This document shows positions 1 through 5,160 of a stretch of 5,160 bases of DNA, piece after piece. The notes under the pieces are model-generated. The model worked only from the letters and a program-made list of their open reading frames with translations. It made no database searches and had not been told where the DNA came from. The stretch comes from Planctomycetota bacterium (GTDB taxonomy: Bacteria; Planctomycetota; Phycisphaerae; WQYP01), in assembly GCA_021809365.1 (NCBI GenBank), contig JAKBAC010000197.1:1-5160 (forward strand), written 5' to 3'. Each line of letters starts with the position of its first letter. The first letter of the stretch is position 1. A program made the position numbers and the translations under genes.

Positions 1-90
1 GGGATAATTTTTGACCTCTTGGAGCATTGTGTCAACGAGCACCGTGGTGACAACCCGGTGGCCCATCAACGCTTCAACAGTTTTGGCTGA
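1..90 (+). CDS. Possible C-terminal end of an unidentified protein (partial, cut by window start)
   Basis: From base 1 the plus-strand frame is open for 29 codons and stops at TGA (88-90). The residues are ordinary and mixed (begins GIIFDLLEHC, ends QRFNSFG), with about 62% G/C at third positions, as expected for real coding sequence here. If real, its last 17 bases overlap the 3' end of the minus-strand regulator, giving a convergent tail-to-tail pair. I do not recognise the family and no motif is visible in so short a piece. The opposite strand of the same bases is also open, from an ATG at complement 64-66, so the choice of strand is uncertain. The sequence to the left of the window would settle it. 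Confidence 0.33.
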   Translation, partial: GIIFDLLEHCVNEHRGDNPVAHQRFNSFG

Positions 91-1207
91 TGAATCCCAC
101 AACGCCGGCGGCGGCCATTAGGAGCGTCATTATTATCATGCGTAACTGGGCATGGGCGAGGTGGCAGGCACCGGCGCGCGAATTCACCTTTAATATTTTG
201 AAGACCGATTCCAGGTGCTTTTGTACCGTGCGAACACTGATGTGCAGCCGTCCGGCGATTTCATCGTTGCCGCAGCCATGGGCCACATGCAAAAGAATTT
301 CCGCCTGGCGCGGCGTCAGGCCTAGCGCCTCCAAAGGCTTGGCGGACGTTACCGCGCGGGATTCCGACATGATCAGCATCCGTCCGAACTCTACCGATTG
401 AATCAATCGCAATTGCAATTGATCCTCACCCAGCGATTTCTTAAAAACCGGATCCGGTGCCGTTATATCATCCGCGGGACAGTTCCGCACGCGCAACCAC
501 TTGGCGATATCTTCCGGCAGGGTGCCGGGGGTTCGGGCGGCTCCCGGAAAATATTTTCCCATCCACAACCGGGCCTTTTTCGTCCAGAATTCAATACGGC
601 TTACGCCGTCAAGCACCACAATTCCTTCCGGCAGATGTTCCAGGACGCCTGTCTGCCGGGAAAGGCGCTTCTGCAGGCGGCTGGTAAATCGCGCCGTGTC
701 AAAGGCCGCGGTGAGTTGCGGGCGCAAGGTGTTGAGTATCTTGCGATCGCGCTCCGAGAAATCACTGAGCCTGCGGTTAAATACCAGAGCCGCAATCAAG
801 GGGCGGCGCGTGGGAAGGGTCATACTGATCTGAAATTCCATCCCCAGCGGACGAAATAGTTCCTGGTACAGGCCGGTGTCATGAAATTCGCGCTGCGAGA
901 TGAAATCACTGATACGCATGGCGTTGCCGTCGTCGCCGGTCTGCTTATGCACAATCACGGGATGATCGTTCATATAGCGTTGAAGCGTGGCCGTCAGAGC
1001 GGCAAGATTAAATTCCTCGGGGTAAATAAATCCGGCGACCTGTTGCGAAACGGGATTGACCTCATTGTAGGAGGTAATATCCGATCCCAGCAGTTTGCCC
1101 AACTGCGGAATAATATGACGGGCTAAATCCTCGCGGCACTGCGGCGTGCGCAAGGCCGCGACCAGATCAAGGATCGCCATAAAATCATCAGATTCAATAG
1201 ATTTCAT
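74..1207 (-). CDS. LuxR-type transcriptional regulator with N-terminal GAF/PAS-like sensor half and hydrophobic C-terminal tail
   Basis: A 377-residue DNA-binding regulator. Residues about 297-352 form a typical LuxR helix-turn-helix: LTPRQAEILL, then G311, N314-EIA, the recognition helix ISVRTVQKH (323-331), and the closing L339, V341 and R344. Residues about 10-180 look like a GAF-type sensor, with a conserved-looking DFISQREFHDTGLY stretch (101-114) seen in many LuxR proteins of this architecture. Residues about 188-215 (LPEGIVVLD, then RIEFW) resemble a PAS-like segment. No phosphoacceptor receiver domain is visible, so it is probably not a classical two-component response regulator; the ligand is unknown. 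Residues 356-373 are strongly hydrophobic, an unusual tail after the DNA-binding domain that could be a membrane anchor or a buried helix. ATG at complement 1205-1207 gives the longest frame. Its ribosome site is weak: AAGGA lies 16 bases upstream. M10 is an alternative start but has no better site. A palindrome also found upstream of the two surface-protein genes lies about 210 bases upstream, suggesting autoregulation and control of those genes (inference). Confidence 0.9.
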   Translation of the reverse strand: MKSIESDDFMAILDLVAALRTPQCREDLARHIIPQLGKLLGSDITSYNEVNPVSQQVAGFIYPEEFNLAALTATLQRYMNDHPVIVHKQTGDDGNAMRISDFISQREFHDTGLYQELFRPLGMEFQISMTLPTRRPLIAALVFNRRLSDFSERDRKILNTLRPQLTAAFDTARFTSRLQKRLSRQTGVLEHLPEGIVVLDGVSRIEFWTKKARLWMGKYFPGAARTPGTLPEDIAKWLRVRNCPADDITAPDPVFKKSLGEDQLQLRLIQSVEFGRMLIMSESRAVTSAKPLEALGLTPRQAEILLHVAHGCGNDEIAGRLHISVRTVQKHLESVFKILKVNSRAGACHLAHAQLRMIIMTLLMAAAGVVGFISQNC

Positions 1208-1417
1208 ATCTACACATCTCTGATCCTTAGTGCCGGCACGACACGTTCACGGATGCCGCACCTGCGGTCACTGCATTTCCGAACCTGACGCTTCCAACAC
1301 CTGTCAAACATTGTGGCATCACAGAGTGTCTCCCGTCTGCGGAACGTGCGGGTCTTACTTTTGCCGCCCAAGGCGGTCGCAGCCCGTACCTATTTATCCA
1401 TGGTTCCGGCCATTTTG

Positions 1418-1438
1418 GCAATACGCAATTTTACGTAT
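1418..1438 (-). promoter_or_regulatory. Candidate operator upstream of the LuxR-type regulator gene
   Basis: On the plus strand, ATACGCA (1421-1427), spacer ATTT and TACGTAT (1432-1438) form an inverted repeat with 6 of 7 arm pairs matching. Read on the minus strand, toward the regulator gene, the 21 bases match the site at 1979-1999 and its copy at 4553-4573 at 19 of 21 positions. The match includes the flanking TTGC after the second arm. The size and symmetry (7+4+7) fit a dimeric helix-turn-helix regulator. It overlaps the expected start point of a possible extended -10 promoter at 1444-1452, a position that would favour repression. Which protein binds is inference. Confidence 0.55.
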
Positions 1439-1443
1439 ATGCC

Positions 1444-1452
1444 ATTGTACCA
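1444..1452 (-). promoter_or_regulatory. Possible extended -10 promoter for the regulator gene
   Basis: The minus strand reads TGG-TACAAT, which fits the TGn extended -10 element followed by 5 of 6 bases of TATAAT. No good -35 lies at normal spacing, as is allowed for extended -10 promoters. Transcription would start near 1437, inside the palindrome at 1418-1438, and leave a leader of about 230 bases before the regulator start codon. The long leader makes this only a tentative call. Confidence 0.28.
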
Positions 1453-1933
1453 GGGAAATACCCCGAACCAGCCCAACAGGCACGGCGATCTTATGAGCGC
1501 GTGGCGATATTTCCGGGCCACACGGCCGGGCAGCTTCACACAGCCGCCGGCTCTGCCGGTGGTGGAACACACGATAAAGGTACCTCGGACCGGCTCCTGG
1601 CTCGGGGGCACCAAAGGCTGTGGTTTGCCCCCTGATCCAGTGCTTGTCACACCCAAATATTCGGATTGACGGAGGGCCAGAGGGCAAAATATTGAAAAAA
1701 GAGCATTTTTCCCGAAAAGCCGGATTTTTGTCTGGCCGCCAAACGCGGATAACCCCATCGGATCACAGCCTGCCTGCCGGGGCCACATTTATGGCGTAAG
1801 CCTCTTATACAGCGATGTTTACGTTCTGTATTTACGTGGCGCGTCACGGCGATTTCCGCCCCGAATAATCACCGTATCCGAGGCGTGGAACGGGGTGAAA
1901 TATTTGTCTCTTTTGACTTTTCTGCACGCTAAA

Positions 1934-1956
1934 AAAGCCAATAAAATCAAGGCTTT
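1934..1956 (+). other. Hairpin-forming inverted repeat within repeat copy A
   Basis: AAAGCC (1934-1939) and GGCTTT (1951-1956) are complementary around an 11-base A-rich loop. It lies upstream of the proposed -10 element, so it would be transcribed only from a start site further upstream. It could be a protein binding site, an RNA element or a weak terminator for upstream transcription (the arm ends in TTT, then CATTT). The copy in repeat B is identical, at 4508-4530. Confidence 0.3.
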
Positions 1957-1978
1957 CATTTGATAGCCGCACAGGAGC

Positions 1979-1999
1979 ATACGCAAAAATGCGTATTGC
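1979..1999 (+). promoter_or_regulatory. Candidate operator (perfect 7+4+7 palindrome) upstream of the surface-protein promoter, copy A
   Basis: ATACGCA (1979-1985), AAAA, TGCGTAT (1990-1996) is a perfect inverted repeat followed by TGC. Its centre lies about 50 bases upstream of the expected transcription start, and the promoter has a good -10 but no recognisable -35, an arrangement typical of activator-dependent promoters. The same motif occurs upstream of the LuxR-type regulator gene at 19 of 21 positions. Surrounding bases GAGCATA (1975-1981) and TATGCTC (2018-2024) can also pair, so an alternative folded-RNA role is possible if this stretch is transcribed. Confidence 0.55.
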
Positions 2000-2025
2000 A
2001 TCGCCGGGATAGATGGCTATGCTCT

Positions 2026-2031
2026 TATAAT
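2026..2031 (+). promoter_or_regulatory. -10 element (TATAAT) of the surface-protein promoter, copy A
   Basis: A perfect TATAAT hexamer lies 61 bases before the start codon, predicting a start near 2037-2039 and a leader of about 55 bases. At 17 bases upstream the sequence is GCCGGG, which is no match to TTGACA; TTGCAT at 1996-2001 is too far away (24 bases). The promoter is therefore likely to need an activator, for which the palindrome at 1979-1999 is the obvious candidate site. Confidence 0.55.
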
Positions 2032-2034
2032 CCA

Positions 2035-2051
2035 CCTGAAATTGGTTCAGG
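2035..2051 (+). promoter_or_regulatory. Inverted repeat at the expected transcript 5' end, copy A
   Basis: CCTGAA (2035-2040), loop ATTGG, TTCAGG (2046-2051) gives a perfect 6-pair stem located at the predicted transcription start. It could act as a stabilising 5' hairpin on the mRNA or as an operator overlapping the start point. The identical element sits at 4609-4625 before the lectin gene. Confidence 0.42.
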
Positions 2052-2060
2052 GATGAGAGT

Positions 2061-2084
2061 TTTGCACGGCAAATTTTAAGGGAG
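2061..2084 (+). promoter_or_regulatory. Small leader hairpin and ribosome binding site, copy A
   Basis: TTTGC (2061-2065) and GCAAA (2069-2073) pair around a 3-base loop just before the ribosome site AAGGGAG (2078-2084). The site is 8 bases from the ATG at 2093, ideal spacing, and fixes that start codon. The same arrangement is present before the lectin gene. Confidence 0.65.
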
Positions 2085-2092
2085 CAACCACC

Positions 2093-4258
2093 ATGTCTAT
2101 TCCAACGTTCTATTCCACAGGCAGCGAGAACGAAGCGGCATCCATTGGAAAAAAAGCAGCACCATCGCACAAACGCCATTCCAGAAGCGGCACCCGACAC
2201 CGCCGCGCCTTGGCGGCATGTGCCGTTGCAGCGGCTACAGCGCTGGCGGCGATGGCCGGAAGTCCATCAGCTCGGGCTGCGACCACGACTTGGACGGATG
2301 GTGCCAGTACCCAAATTTGGAGTGGCAGCGGTAACTGGACAGGTGGCATACCCGCGACCGGCTCGGACGTCATCATCGGCAGTCCGGCCACCTTTTCCTC
2401 ACCGTCGTTGGATGACTATTCGGTGGCGATTGCTAATTTAACGGTCGCTGCCAATAGCGGCCTGGCGATCAACGCGGGAGTTGGCTTGATCATAAACAGT
2501 GGCGGTTCTATTACGGACAATGGCCAGATCACGGTTAATACCACAGCCGCCAACAGCAACACTGGCGTTGGAATTAGTGGATCCGTAACATTGCAAGGCA
2601 CAGGTAGCCTGATCCTAAACGCCGGTGCCAGCGGCTTTGGTGCCGCCGAGATCTACGACGCCGGCTACAGCAACCTCACGCAGGATGCCGGCCACACGAT
2701 ATCCGGTGCGGGTCAGATCAGTGTCGATGCCTTCACCAACAACGGCGTCGTCGACGCAAATTCCAGCGGCAATACACTTCGGTTAATCAGCGGAGCATTC
2801 ACCAACACCAACCTCATGGAAGGCACCGGTGGTGGGACTCTCCAACTCAACTCCACCTTCACCAACACCGGTGGAACTATCGAGGCCAATGGCGGCACCG
2901 TACTGCTTAATGGGGGTACTGTTACCGGCGGCACGCTTACCAGCGTCTCCGGAAGTGAAATTGACGAGGAGAACAGCACCAATCTGGTGGGCGTCACGTT
3001 ATCCATCGGTAGCAATTTGTACGTGTTGGACGGAAACAACCTCGTTGCCAACGGCGGCAGTACAAACGATGTGATCACCAACAACGGCACCATCACCGTC
3101 AATAAGGGAGGCAGTAACCTAGGTACAGGGATCGGCATATCCAACAGCGTGGAACTTGCCGGCACCGGCTCGATTGTCCTGAACGCCAACGGCACTGCTC
3201 TTGGTAACGCGAACATTTTTGATAACGGCTACAGCAACCTCACGCAGGATTCAGGCCACAGCATTACCGGGACCGGCGAAATCACGGTGAATAGCTTCAC
3301 CAATAACGGAACTGTCAACGCCAATTCGGCCGGCAATACCCTGGCGATCACCAAAAGCAACACCAATAACGGTACGTACGAAGCCAGCAATGGCGGCACA
3401 CTGAACGTCTCCAACCTCAGCAACGATTCCGGCGGCACCCTTACGGGCGGAACGTATGAAGTAGCCGCTAACAGCACCATGATCCTGCCAGGCTCAATTA
3501 CCGTTAATGACGGCAATATCATTCTTAGCGGATCAAACACCACGTTTGCCGCCATCACACCGCTTAACAACAATGAGGGCGGCTTTCACCTCATTAATGG
3601 TGCCAGCTTCACCACCCAGGGAGATTTGGCCAATTCCGGCACCATTGAAACCACTGGGGCCACCATCAGCCCATCAGCAGCGGCCAGCACATTAACGGTC
3701 GCCGGAACCTTTACCCAAACTGCCGGAACCACCACGGACAACGGAGTGATTAACACCGCTGTGATGAACCTGGAGGGCGGCACTCTGGCGGGCACCGGCA
3801 GCGTCAGTGGAAGGGTTAATAACACCGGCGGCGTCATCAGTCCCGGTGATGCACCAGGCACGCTGACTCTTGGTGCCCTAACCCAGAGTTCAACCGGAAT
3901 TGTGGACATCCTGTTAGCCAGCCTGACATCCTTTGACCAGCTAAACGTCTTGGGCTCGGCAACTCTTAACGGCACGCTAAATGTATCGCTCGCGGCCAGC
4001 TTTTCAGCACCCGACCATTCAACATTTGATATTCTGAAATCCTTGGGATTAGCGGGAACCACGTTTTCATCGGTCAATCTCCCCAGCGACTTTTCAATTT
4101 CCTACACCGCCACGGACGTGATCTTGAATTACATCAACAACACCGGCCCATCGCCGGTGCCCACGCCAGCGTCAGCCGGGTTGCTGGCTTTGGGAGCCTT
4201 GGGCCTGCTTGCCAGCCGTCAACTGGTCGTGCGGAAGCGCCGCCGGATGTCCGCGTGA
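2093..4258 (+). CDS. Exported beta-strand-repeat surface protein with variant PEP-CTERM tail
   Basis: A 721-residue secreted protein of unknown specific function, probably part of the cell surface or extracellular matrix. The start is set by AAGGGAG 8 bases upstream. The first 38 residues are hydrophilic and basic, followed by a hydrophobic core (39-56) and a likely signal peptidase site after SARA (residue 62). The mature protein begins with a Trp/Asn motif (WTDG, then IWSGSGNWTGG near 67-85) typical of repeat-rich autotransporter-like and PEP-CTERM proteins. The body is Thr/Asn/Gly/Ser-rich, suggesting a beta-helix, with an internal duplication (143-230 and 331-418). Residues about 581-635 (SPGDAPGTLTLGAL, then FDQLNVLGSATLNGTLNVSL) match the common autotransporter-associated beta-strand pattern. 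The end (686-721) has PSPVPTPAS, a hydrophobic helix (about 695-707) and basic VRKRRR. This is the PEP-CTERM layout with Thr where Glu is usual. Such tails are thought to be processed by an exosortase, not seen in this window. The only cysteine is C43, inside the signal sequence. No catalytic motif is visible. Confidence 0.9.
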   Translation: MSIPTFYSTGSENEAASIGKKAAPSHKRHSRSGTRHRRALAACAVAAATALAAMAGSPSARAATTTWTDGASTQIWSGSGNWTGGIPATGSDVIIGSPATFSSPSLDDYSVAIANLTVAANSGLAINAGVGLIINSGGSITDNGQITVNTTAANSNTGVGISGSVTLQGTGSLILNAGASGFGAAEIYDAGYSNLTQDAGHTISGAGQISVDAFTNNGVVDANSSGNTLRLISGAFTNTNLMEGTGGGTLQLNSTFTNTGGTIEANGGTVLLNGGTVTGGTLTSVSGSEIDEENSTNLVGVTLSIGSNLYVLDGNNLVANGGSTNDVITNNGTITVNKGGSNLGTGIGISNSVELAGTGSIVLNANGTALGNANIFDNGYSNLTQDSGHSITGTGEITVNSFTNNGTVNANSAGNTLAITKSNTNNGTYEASNGGTLNVSNLSNDSGGTLTGGTYEVAANSTMILPGSITVNDGNIILSGSNTTFAAITPLNNNEGGFHLINGASFTTQGDLANSGTIETTGATISPSAAASTLTVAGTFTQTAGTTTDNGVINTAVMNLEGGTLAGTGSVSGRVNNTGGVISPGDAPGTLTLGALTQSSTGIVDILLASLTSFDQLNVLGSATLNGTLNVSLAASFSAPDHSTFDILKSLGLAGTTFSSVNLPSDFSISYTATDVILNYINNTGPSPVPTPASAGLLALGALGLLASRQLVVRKRRRMSA
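2519..2782 (+). repeat. Internal duplication, unit 1 (residues 143-230 of the beta-strand-repeat protein)
   Basis: These 88 residues align without gaps to residues 331-418 with 54 identities by my count (about 61%). Shared blocks are NG-ITVN, the GTGS core, GYSNLTQD, FTNNG and NS-GNTL. At DNA level a 25-base stretch (2662-2686) is identical to 3226-3250, although flanking codons have diverged. Confidence 0.9.
3083..3346 (+). repeat. Internal duplication, unit 2 (residues 331-418 of the beta-strand-repeat protein)
   Basis: Second unit of the 188-residue-period duplication, same phase as unit 1. The conserved GYSNLTQD-GH block is at 379-388. Shorter Gly/Thr/Asn motifs (TNNGT, GGTL) continue on both sides and fit stacked beta-helix rungs. 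Confidence 0.9.
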
Positions 4259-4266
4259 AAGCGCGG
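4251..4266 (+). terminator. Hairpin across the stop codon, possible weak terminator
   Basis: CCGCG (4251-4255) and CGCGG (4262-4266) pair around a loop that contains the TGA stop codon. T-rich sequence follows (TGTTTCGTTTT, about 4274-4284), but not directly after the stem, so this is a poor match to an intrinsic terminator. It may only stabilise the 3' end. A second inverted repeat, GGGCA-GCT-TGCCC at 4422-4434, also lacks a T-run. No strong terminator separates this gene from the lectin gene. Confidence 0.2.
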
Positions 4267-4552
4267 CGATGATTGTGTTTCGTTTTCCGAATAAACGGGC
4301 GTTCGATGGGACCGCTAACATGAGTTAACCCCGTCGGATCGGCCGCTGGTTCCACGCTGGCATTTGGAGTGTAAGTTGCTTGTAAAACCATGTTTATGCG
4401 ATATTCCTATTGGGTCTGCCAGGGCAGCTTGCCCCCCCATGACCGCGATATCGGAGGCGTGTAACGGGGTGAAATATTTGTCTCTTTTGACTTTTCTGCA
4501 CGCTAAAAAAGCCAATAAAATCAAGGCTTTCATTTGATAGCCGCACAGGAGC

Positions 4553-4573
4553 ATACGCAAAAATGCGTATTGC
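4553..4573 (+). promoter_or_regulatory. Candidate operator (perfect palindrome), copy B
   Basis: Identical to the site at 1979-1999: ATACGCA, four A, TGCGTAT, then TGC. It sits at the same distance from the -10 element and from the start codon of the lectin-like gene. Confidence 0.55.
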
Positions 4574-4599
4574 ATCGCCGGGATAGATGGCTATGCTCT

Positions 4600-4605
4600 T
4601 ATAAT
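4600..4605 (+). promoter_or_regulatory. -10 element (TATAAT) of the lectin gene promoter, copy B
   Basis: Perfect TATAAT, 61 bases before the ATG at 4667, with the same weak -35 region and the same inverted repeat at the expected transcript start (CCTGAA 4609-4614, TTCAGG 4620-4625). It gives the lectin gene its own promoter rather than dependence on read-through. Confidence 0.55.
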
Positions 4606-4651
4606 CCACCTGAAATTGGTTCAGGGATGAGAGTTTTGCACGGCAAATTTT

Positions 4652-4658
4652 AAGGGAG
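4652..4658 (+). promoter_or_regulatory. Ribosome binding site of the lectin-like gene
   Basis: AAGGGAG, 8 bases before the ATG at 4667, identical in sequence and spacing to the site before the beta-strand-repeat protein. It fixes the start of a coding region that runs off the window end. Confidence 0.75.
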
Positions 4659-4666
4659 CAAGGACC

Positions 4667-5160
4667 ATGTCTAATCCAATGTTCTATTCCAAAGGCAGCA
4701 TTACCAAGGTGCAATCCACTAAGGAAATTACGGCGCTATCGCGCAAGCGTCAAGGCAAGCTTAGCGCGCAACACCAGCGCGCTTTAGCGGGGTGCGCTAT
4801 CGCGATGGCTGGTTTACTGGCTACCGCAGGCCCTGTCCTTGCCGGCTTTGCCCCGGGCATATCCGGCTTCGGCGATGGCTCTGCATTCACCCTGACCGGC
4901 TATACCCAGGACGCTTCGGGTAATATTACCGATAACAACGCACCGACCATCAGCAGTGGTACCTTGACCCTCACCACCGCCGCCGCCGGCGAAGCCCGTG
5001 CGGCATTTTTTAACTTTCCCCAAGCCATCAACAATTTCACCGCCGCCTTCACATTCCAGACGGACCCAACCTCGTTCGCGGCCTTGGGGCCATCGGACGG
5101 CTTTGCTTTCGTGCTGCAGAATGACTCCCGCAGCACCGCTGCCATTGGAGGTGGAGGTGC
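4667..5160 (+). CDS. Exported L-type (legume-like) lectin domain protein, partial (cut by window end)
   Basis: The frame is open from ATG 4667 to the end of the window (164 full codons), so the C-terminus is missing. The first 38 residues are a basic, hydrophilic leader, followed by a hydrophobic core (39-56) and a likely cleavage site after PVLA (residue 59). The mature part shows the start of an L-type lectin fold: AFTLTGYTQD (73-82), a strand SSGTLTLTT (96-104), AAFFNFPQAINNFTAAFTF (112-130), then DGFAFVLQND (144-153). In characterised L-type lectins the Asp of this DG-AF motif (here D144) belongs to the sugar-binding site, so carbohydrate binding is likely. Bacterial proteins of this kind are usually extracellular or surface-held, and a PEP-CTERM-like tail beyond the window would fit its neighbour. 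The leader matches that of the preceding gene product without gaps (22 of the first 48 residues identical), although the mature domains are unrelated. Promoter and ribosome site are in repeat copy B. Confidence 0.88.
   Translation, partial: MSNPMFYSKGSITKVQSTKEITALSRKRQGKLSAQHQRALAGCAIAMAGLLATAGPVLAGFAPGISGFGDGSAFTLTGYTQDASGNITDNNAPTISSGTLTLTTAAAGEARAAFFNFPQAINNFTAAFTFQTDPTSFAALGPSDGFAFVLQNDSRSTAAIGGGG

Follow-up and report, generated by a model that had tools for sequence, protein, structure and literature searches.

Probable gene conversion of a shared regulatory region ahead of two dissimilar surface-protein genes, and a candidate LuxR-type regulator, in a Planctomycetota bacterium

Surface-protein genes with shared 5' ends take part in S-layer switching at the sap locus of Campylobacter fetus, where one promoter lies on an invertible segment. 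Among proteobacterial PEP-CTERM genes, 99 of 167 are preceded by a sigma-54/PrsR element (Haft 2006, PMC1569441), and in that report the Proteobacteria are the only ones of the species discussed to share PEP-CTERM box motifs. The proteobacterial box operates with PrsK/PrsR and sigma-54, as described for pepA in PMC9850573, and gene conversion or concerted evolution of whole paralogues is documented in prokaryotes, for instance for tufA/tufB (PMC6053082). Here we analyze a 5,160-nucleotide stretch of a Planctomycetota bacterium (GCA_021809365.1, contig JAKBAC010000197.1, positions 1 to 5,160 of the forward strand), hereafter the window, in which two surface-protein genes with dissimilar mature products share a near-identical upstream region and a LuxR/GerE-type regulator gene lies divergently from the first of them. 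The best explanation, to which we assign a probability of about 0.7, is an old duplication of the regulatory region and signal peptide, followed by a recent gene conversion of about 200 bases, with dyads through which the LuxR-type protein would regulate the genes.

The longest run of identity between the two upstream regions measures 199 bases, at positions 1889-2087 (copy 1) and 4463-4661 (copy 2) of the plus strand, and is proposed as a gene-conversion tract on the basis of pairwise comparison, zone identities and site patterns. Over the 218 bases before each start codon (1875-2092 and 4449-4666) the copies differ at four positions (1879, 1888, 2088 and 2089), so that direct comparison bears out both the extent of the match and the 199 consecutive identical bases reported by an earlier inspection of the window (the sequence-only reading). 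Three further differences fall within the first 33 coding bases (2093-2125). The strong match collapses beyond this point, as that reading had stated, but a weak homology that it had not described continues on both sides. Since a run above 47 was never seen in 20,000 random shuffles (130 differences over 517 aligned sites), a 199-base run by chance is excluded.

Copy 1 precedes a plus-strand gene (2093-4258) for a 721-residue beta-strand-repeat surface protein with an extended signal peptide of about 62 residues and a PEP-CTERM-like tail, which did not match the TIGR02595 hidden Markov model profile. Copy 2 precedes the plus-strand gene of an L-type lectin PEP-CTERM protein (4667-5160), which runs beyond the window and encodes 327 residues on contig JAKBCC010000041.1 (29,615 bases) of a 3.9-Mb Planctomycetota metagenome-assembled genome (MAG; G001) of low coverage and possibly incomplete. 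This contig holds both copies (a 38-base tract pattern occurs in it in two stretches) and agrees with the window in 5129 of 5160 bases, with none of the 31 mismatches in the identical tracts. Between the mature proteins, the PEP-CTERM-like tail (15 of 36 residues) is the one part with a convincing alignment, and in this respect the description of the two products as unrelated stands; it does not extend to their signal peptides, which are homologous (24 of 52 residues identical, 46%, without gaps).

Additional information on the history of the two copies came from G003, which, in a search of 101 genomes with the regulator protein, had the closest homologue (81%) after that of G001 itself. G003 carries the same divergent gene pair with a single module, and its surface-gene frame stops early, at 346 residues, as assembled. 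In a three-way alignment, both copies and G003 are alignable beyond the tract, from about 1752 to 2270, defining paralogous zones of upstream region, tract and signal peptide at 1752-2270 (copy 1) and 4326-4844 (copy 2) on the plus strand, with approximate outer limits. In the upstream flank (1752-1874), copy 1 matches copy 2 at 69/123 positions (56%) and G003 at 86/124 (69%), and copy 2 matches G003 at 67/123; 30 sites group copy 1 with G003, 13 group the two copies and 11 group copy 2 with G003. Within the tract, the copies agree at 199/199 positions, each matches G003 at 134/202 (66%) and G020, another relative, at 142/201, and all 64 ungapped variable sites group copy 1 with copy 2. In the signal-peptide zone (2126-2270), the identities are 74/145 (51%) between copies, 92/145 (63%) between copy 1 and G003 and 86/145 between copy 2 and G003, with 32 sites grouping copy 1 with G003, 26 copy 2 with G003 and 14 the two copies. 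The relationship thus shifts at the tract edges, copy 1 being nearer to G003 in the upstream flank and nearer to copy 2 within the tract. Judged by these patterns, the leader zone is old and by itself gives copy 2 no clear placement.

Because of this change of relationship, gene conversion is supported among the three origins considered in the sequence-only reading (recent duplication, gene conversion or a spreading promoter cassette). From the identity, the flank divergence and the shift at the edges, all read directly from the sequence, we infer a conversion event and its recency. Before the split from G003, the 5' part of a gene, comprising the regulatory region and the extended signal peptide, would have been placed ahead of two unrelated mature domains, those of the beta-strand-repeat protein and the L-type lectin, and the copies would then have drifted to about 50-60% identity. 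Recent homologous recombination between these direct copies, 2574 bases apart, would have replaced about 200 bases in one by the corresponding sequence from its partner while the old flanks survived, and the homogenized stretch would span the whole putative module, from a dyad over the -35 element through the -10 element to a 5' hairpin followed by GAGAG. Lectin homologues offer a further view of this history. Several of the 16 that we read have short, simple signal peptides (e.g., P0243 and P0244), P0241 and P0242 carry the extended type found in the window, and the G020 lectin starts with MFNPT after its module and then diverges; we infer that lectin genes acquired promoter and leader at some earlier time. 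The P0241 leader is changed at three of residues 2-7 and identical over the 53 that follow, a pattern pointing to a breakpoint close to the tract edge.

The homogenized stretch contains a candidate dyad operator, ATACGCAAAAATGCGTAT, at 1979-1996 in copy 1, and a pattern search located its counterpart at 4553-4570 in copy 2, both on the plus strand. The copy 1 dyad abuts a predicted plus-strand promoter (1996-2023) composed of a -35 element TTGCAT (1996-2001), a 16-base spacer and a -10 element TATGCT (2018-2023), a spacing repeated in G003 and G020; the copy 2 promoter (4570-4597, plus strand) is identical. Transcription is predicted to start near 2029-2030, which would center the dyad at about -42. 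A position of -42 is that of class II activators. Downstream, a plus-strand hairpin in the 5' untranslated region (UTR), CCTGAA-ATTGG-TTCAGG (2035-2051), is followed by GATGAGAG and is identical in copy 2 (4609-4625), and a Shine-Dalgarno-like AAGGGAG lies at 2078-2084 of the plus strand in copy 1. A known RNA element was considered for the hairpin and rejected: Rfam yielded two chance-level matches in the window, neither of them at the hairpin, covariation is weak, and the whole UTR folds no better than shuffled sequences. Alternatively, this sequence may represent a second dyad at the DNA level. The tract also contains a terminator-like AAAGCC-N11-GGCTTT with a minus-strand T run, at 1934-1956 and 4508-4530.

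The order dyad-promoter-hairpin-GAGAG was also found before the G003 gene, a G020 lectin gene (contig C69), a G025 beta-strand-repeat gene and a G004 PEP-CTERM gene (C62). With small departures, it recurs on contig C161 of the MAG ahead of a second PEP-CTERM gene that resembles the beta-strand-repeat family, and specifically P0131, a homologue of the 721-residue protein. Over about 205 bases, and with the weaker G019 module included, they share 36-72% identity among themselves and with the window copies, compared to 99% between copy 1 and copy 2. A first model (R1, three sequences), searched in 15 genomes, matched G025 and G004 weakly. A second (R2, five sequences including G025 and G004, which it matches by construction as it does the other three) matched 11 of 198 genomes at E ≤0.05. 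Its strong new match was C161 of G001 (E 1.6e-7), and eight others lay at E 0.004-0.05 (G018, G019, C205 of G001, G006, G127, two in G012, and G044). By position or dyad, those in G018, G019 and C205 are possible modules, with a degenerate dyad in G019 and a different spacing in G018; inspection of the G006 and G127 sequences revealed nothing in support. On C205 (L169), an exact dyad at contig positions 9566-9583 is followed by TTGTAT. It stands 300 bases ahead of a gene whose surface-protein-like product has choice-of-anchor D domains and at least 1,700 residues, and no GAGAG hairpin was seen at this site.

A third dyad, ATACGYA-N4-TRCGTAT, lies on the minus strand at 1421-1438, ahead of the divergent regulator gene, and the three are the only exact dyads on the MAG contig. 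The regulator-side dyad touches a predicted -35 element TTGCCA (1421-1416), followed after a 17-base spacer by a -10-like GATAAA (1398-1393), and has similarly placed counterparts in six relatives. Ahead of the LuxR start it is exact in G001, G003 and G004 and carries one mismatch in G025, G026, G019 and G009. In these seven genomes, the distance from dyad to aligned LuxR start, counted by hand, is 178-213 bases, and all seven dyads run into a TTG-type -35 element followed by a GATAA-type -10 element. Since the dyad is found upstream of the divergent LuxR gene in G001 and in six relatives as well, the LuxR/GerE protein is likely to be the regulator of dyad genes and an autoregulator. Encoded beside copy 1, it is most likely to act by binding the dyad, thereby activating the two surface-protein genes from about -42, and it would control its own gene through the third dyad.

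We searched for the dyad in 30 chosen genomes, 17 with a LuxR homologue at E <1e-30 and 13 without a LuxR match. The exact pattern was found at 12 sites, in seven of the 17 LuxR-bearing genomes and in none of the 13 others, whereas a reversed control pattern had a single exact site, in one of the LuxR-less genomes. Allowing up to one mismatch, there were 40 sites (control, 11) in the 17 genomes and six (control, eight) in the 13. These counts are partly circular, as the dyad was generalized from some of the genomes searched, but G009 and G019 lay outside its definition and both carry a one-mismatch dyad at the expected place. In G013 the dyad is about 540 bases from LuxR, and in G018, G020 and G028 the site on the LuxR contig lies only on the other side of the gene. 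No dyad with up to one mismatch was found on the LuxR contig of G005, G007, G008, G015, G022 and G023, some of which have a shortened LuxR. In G005, G007 and G008 (C286), the regulator homologue retains only some 200 residues from its C-terminus (L056, L057 7241-8797, L058), beside genes whose products look, by eye, like an arsenite methyltransferase, an arsenite transporter and an ArsR-type regulator.

Several observations weigh against this combination of gene conversion and LuxR control. The exact dyad is missing in 10 of the 17 LuxR-bearing genomes, and 10 of the 17 lack a dyad at its customary position before LuxR even when one mismatch is allowed. Covariation in the hairpin does not reach significance, with one pair changed on both sides in seven sequences and 139 of 500 shuffles doing as well. 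The homology of the flanks is based on about 55% identity across short stretches, the leader-zone sites divide 32 to 26 between copy 1 and copy 2 as partner of G003, and the downstream contrast (63% versus 51%) is less clear-cut than the upstream one (69% versus 56%). A donor test did not separate the candidates: 27 tract sites are shared with G003 alone and 35 with the lectin promoter of G020 alone (binomial p 0.37). In addition, the G020 lectin contig is short and the LuxR of G020 itself is 46% alike, so that misbinning is possible. Seven small changes lie beside the tract (2/14 bases upstream and 5/38 downstream), reflecting patchy repair, later mutation or constraint. Finally, the MAG contig has a coverage of 3.06, and the exact identity could be slightly overstated.

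Top identity confined to 1875-2125, with a sharp drop on both sides, is also what a recent segmental duplication would leave if a block of about 250 bases had been copied ahead of the lectin gene without older homology. We regard this as unlikely. Upstream flank and signal peptide align colinearly as paralogues, with no gap in the leader, and these colinear, diverged flanks are not explained by a new block set between unrelated flanks. The leader of the lectin homologue P0242 is of the same type and probably older than the tract, since P0242 and the LuxR homologue P0004 are both on 6093-base contigs. Similarly, a simple local tandem duplication, to which the sequence-only reading would have turned had the genome held only these two copies and its relatives none, is insufficient, the flanks being far more diverged than the tract. 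A 199-base repeat on a contig with a coverage of about 3 could also have been assembled by collapsing two similar promoters into one consensus. Such an artefact is distinctly improbable: two sequences with 31 base differences agree on both copies, though their reads may be common, and a collapse might mask a few differences but would hardly raise an identity of about 60% to 100%.

Spread of a mobile or dispersed promoter cassette within the genome would account for the diverged modules ahead of different surface proteins in G001, G003, G004, G020 and G025, and to that extent the cassette suggested by the sequence-only reading persists. Near-identical spread was not observed, and we consider it very unlikely. 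In the 3.9-Mb MAG, itself possibly incomplete, a 300-base query had 13 matches at E ≤10, of which two were strong, both on JAKBCC010000041.1, and the third had an E value of 0.29; the many copies expected of a cassette thus reduce to two in the MAG. In 198 relatives, a 153-base query matched 14 genomes at E ≤0.1: besides G001, only G020 strongly (E 7e-31) and 12 weakly (E 8e-5 to 0.09), with a sensitivity limited enough to miss G003. A leader search in seven genomes was clear only for the two leaders in G001 and one in G003, the next match having an E value of 0.03. The plasmid and phage collections searched contained no match to the tract, viral contigs contained no match to an exact 26-base tract pattern, and no inverted repeat of at least 20 bases was found at the tract ends, whose flanks are paralogous. 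On these counts, a dispersed cassette was rejected.

Long direct repeats ahead of surface-protein genes could likewise recombine, and the P0241 leader, with its abrupt change to identity, would fit a switch like that of C. fetus sap, in which shared 5' ends swap surface proteins at one promoter. Shared 5' ends of surface-protein genes are indeed common to both systems. Unlike sap, the window presents a complete predicted promoter at each gene, in direct orientation, and direct repeats delete rather than invert; only a single such pair was found in the MAG, and a recombination switch is accordingly highly improbable. Purifying selection on a complex regulatory region would agree with the conservation of dyad, -35/-10 elements, hairpin and start region between species, but it is scarcely credible as the cause of identity, since the tract matches its G003 orthologue at only 134/202 positions and G020 at 142/201, and the C161 module, which follows this plan and comes from the MAG itself, shows about 42% identity over a similar span, a divergence that contradicts it and upholds the earlier statement that the identity exceeds regulatory need.

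The regulator gene occupies the minus strand at 74-1207 and encodes 377 residues; its assignment follows from a Pfam GerE match and an AlphaFold2 model. The helix-turn-helix (HTH), at residues 297-351, matches GerE (PF00196) with an E value of 3e-13 and 49.6 bits against a cut-off of 23.5. The model, with a mean predicted local distance difference test score of 88 and a predicted template modelling (TM) score of 0.65, suggests a GAF-like and a PAS-like domain N-terminal to the HTH; its Foldseek matches are partial, with a TM-score of 0.76 (by target length) to the VqsR ligand-binding domain. On C161 (L165 4996-6689), the second beta-strand-repeat-like gene is preceded by two GerE-type regulator frames that share its orientation. 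Downstream of the lectin gene, the MAG contig carries three more PEP-CTERM proteins in a row (L047 5752-8935), among them a Laminin_G_3 domain protein and another bearing HAF repeats; these three and the lectin exceed the TIGR02595 (PEP-CTERM) cut-off. Within the lectin gene, positions 4836-5160 hold 24 of the 31 mismatches between window and MAG, and at eight of 10 differing lectin residues the window sides with P0241 against the MAG, suggesting recombination among strains or assembly mixing.

Among described regulators, the LuxR-type protein is reminiscent of EpsA, the XrtB/PEP-CTERM-associated LuxR regulator (TIGR03020), in its GerE HTH and PEP-CTERM association, but it scores 44.9 bits against the TIGR03020 cut-off of 170, through the HTH only, and by that cut-off is not an EpsA. 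The PrsR model TIGR02915 was above its cut-off in none of eight genomes, all of which have lower-scoring relatives (best, 387.9 versus 502.6 bits), and exosortase PF09721 was above its cut-off in seven of the eight (not in G013), with two in G001, compared to one of 14 control genomes. No LuxR-linked PEP-CTERM operator was found in the literature searched, which included the accessible text of PMC7293339 and left subscription papers largely outside. As with tufA/tufB (PMC6053082), paralogues within a genome are more alike than orthologues; here, however, the homogenized stretch is the regulatory region of unrelated products rather than whole coding sequences. The proposed conversion tract suggests that a regulatory region can be homogenized even when the proteins encoded behind it are entirely different, so that what is preserved may be common expression and not common function.

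There are many PEP-CTERM proteins, most of them without an explanation, and the cis-element that PMC1569441 describes as common to such genes is proteobacterial; a regulator-operator pair across related planctomycetes would provide a testable handle on the timing of surface-protein production. Like the PEP-CTERM box, the planctomycete system appears to pair a dedicated regulator with a cis-element shared by numerous PEP-CTERM genes that are not otherwise related; unlike it, the window has a short dyad over the -35 element and a GerE-type regulator instead of a sigma-54 enhancer and PrsR. By analogy, the dyad system may work like the PEP-CTERM box without being a member of it. We tentatively suggest, at somewhat less than even odds, that the GAF/PAS-GerE regulator and its dyad define a Planctomycetota PEP-CTERM regulon, a counterpart of PrsR and the PEP-CTERM box, in which a module of promoter, 5' hairpin and extended signal peptide would pass from one mature surface domain to another, unrelated one, and the copies inside a genome would be kept alike by conversion.

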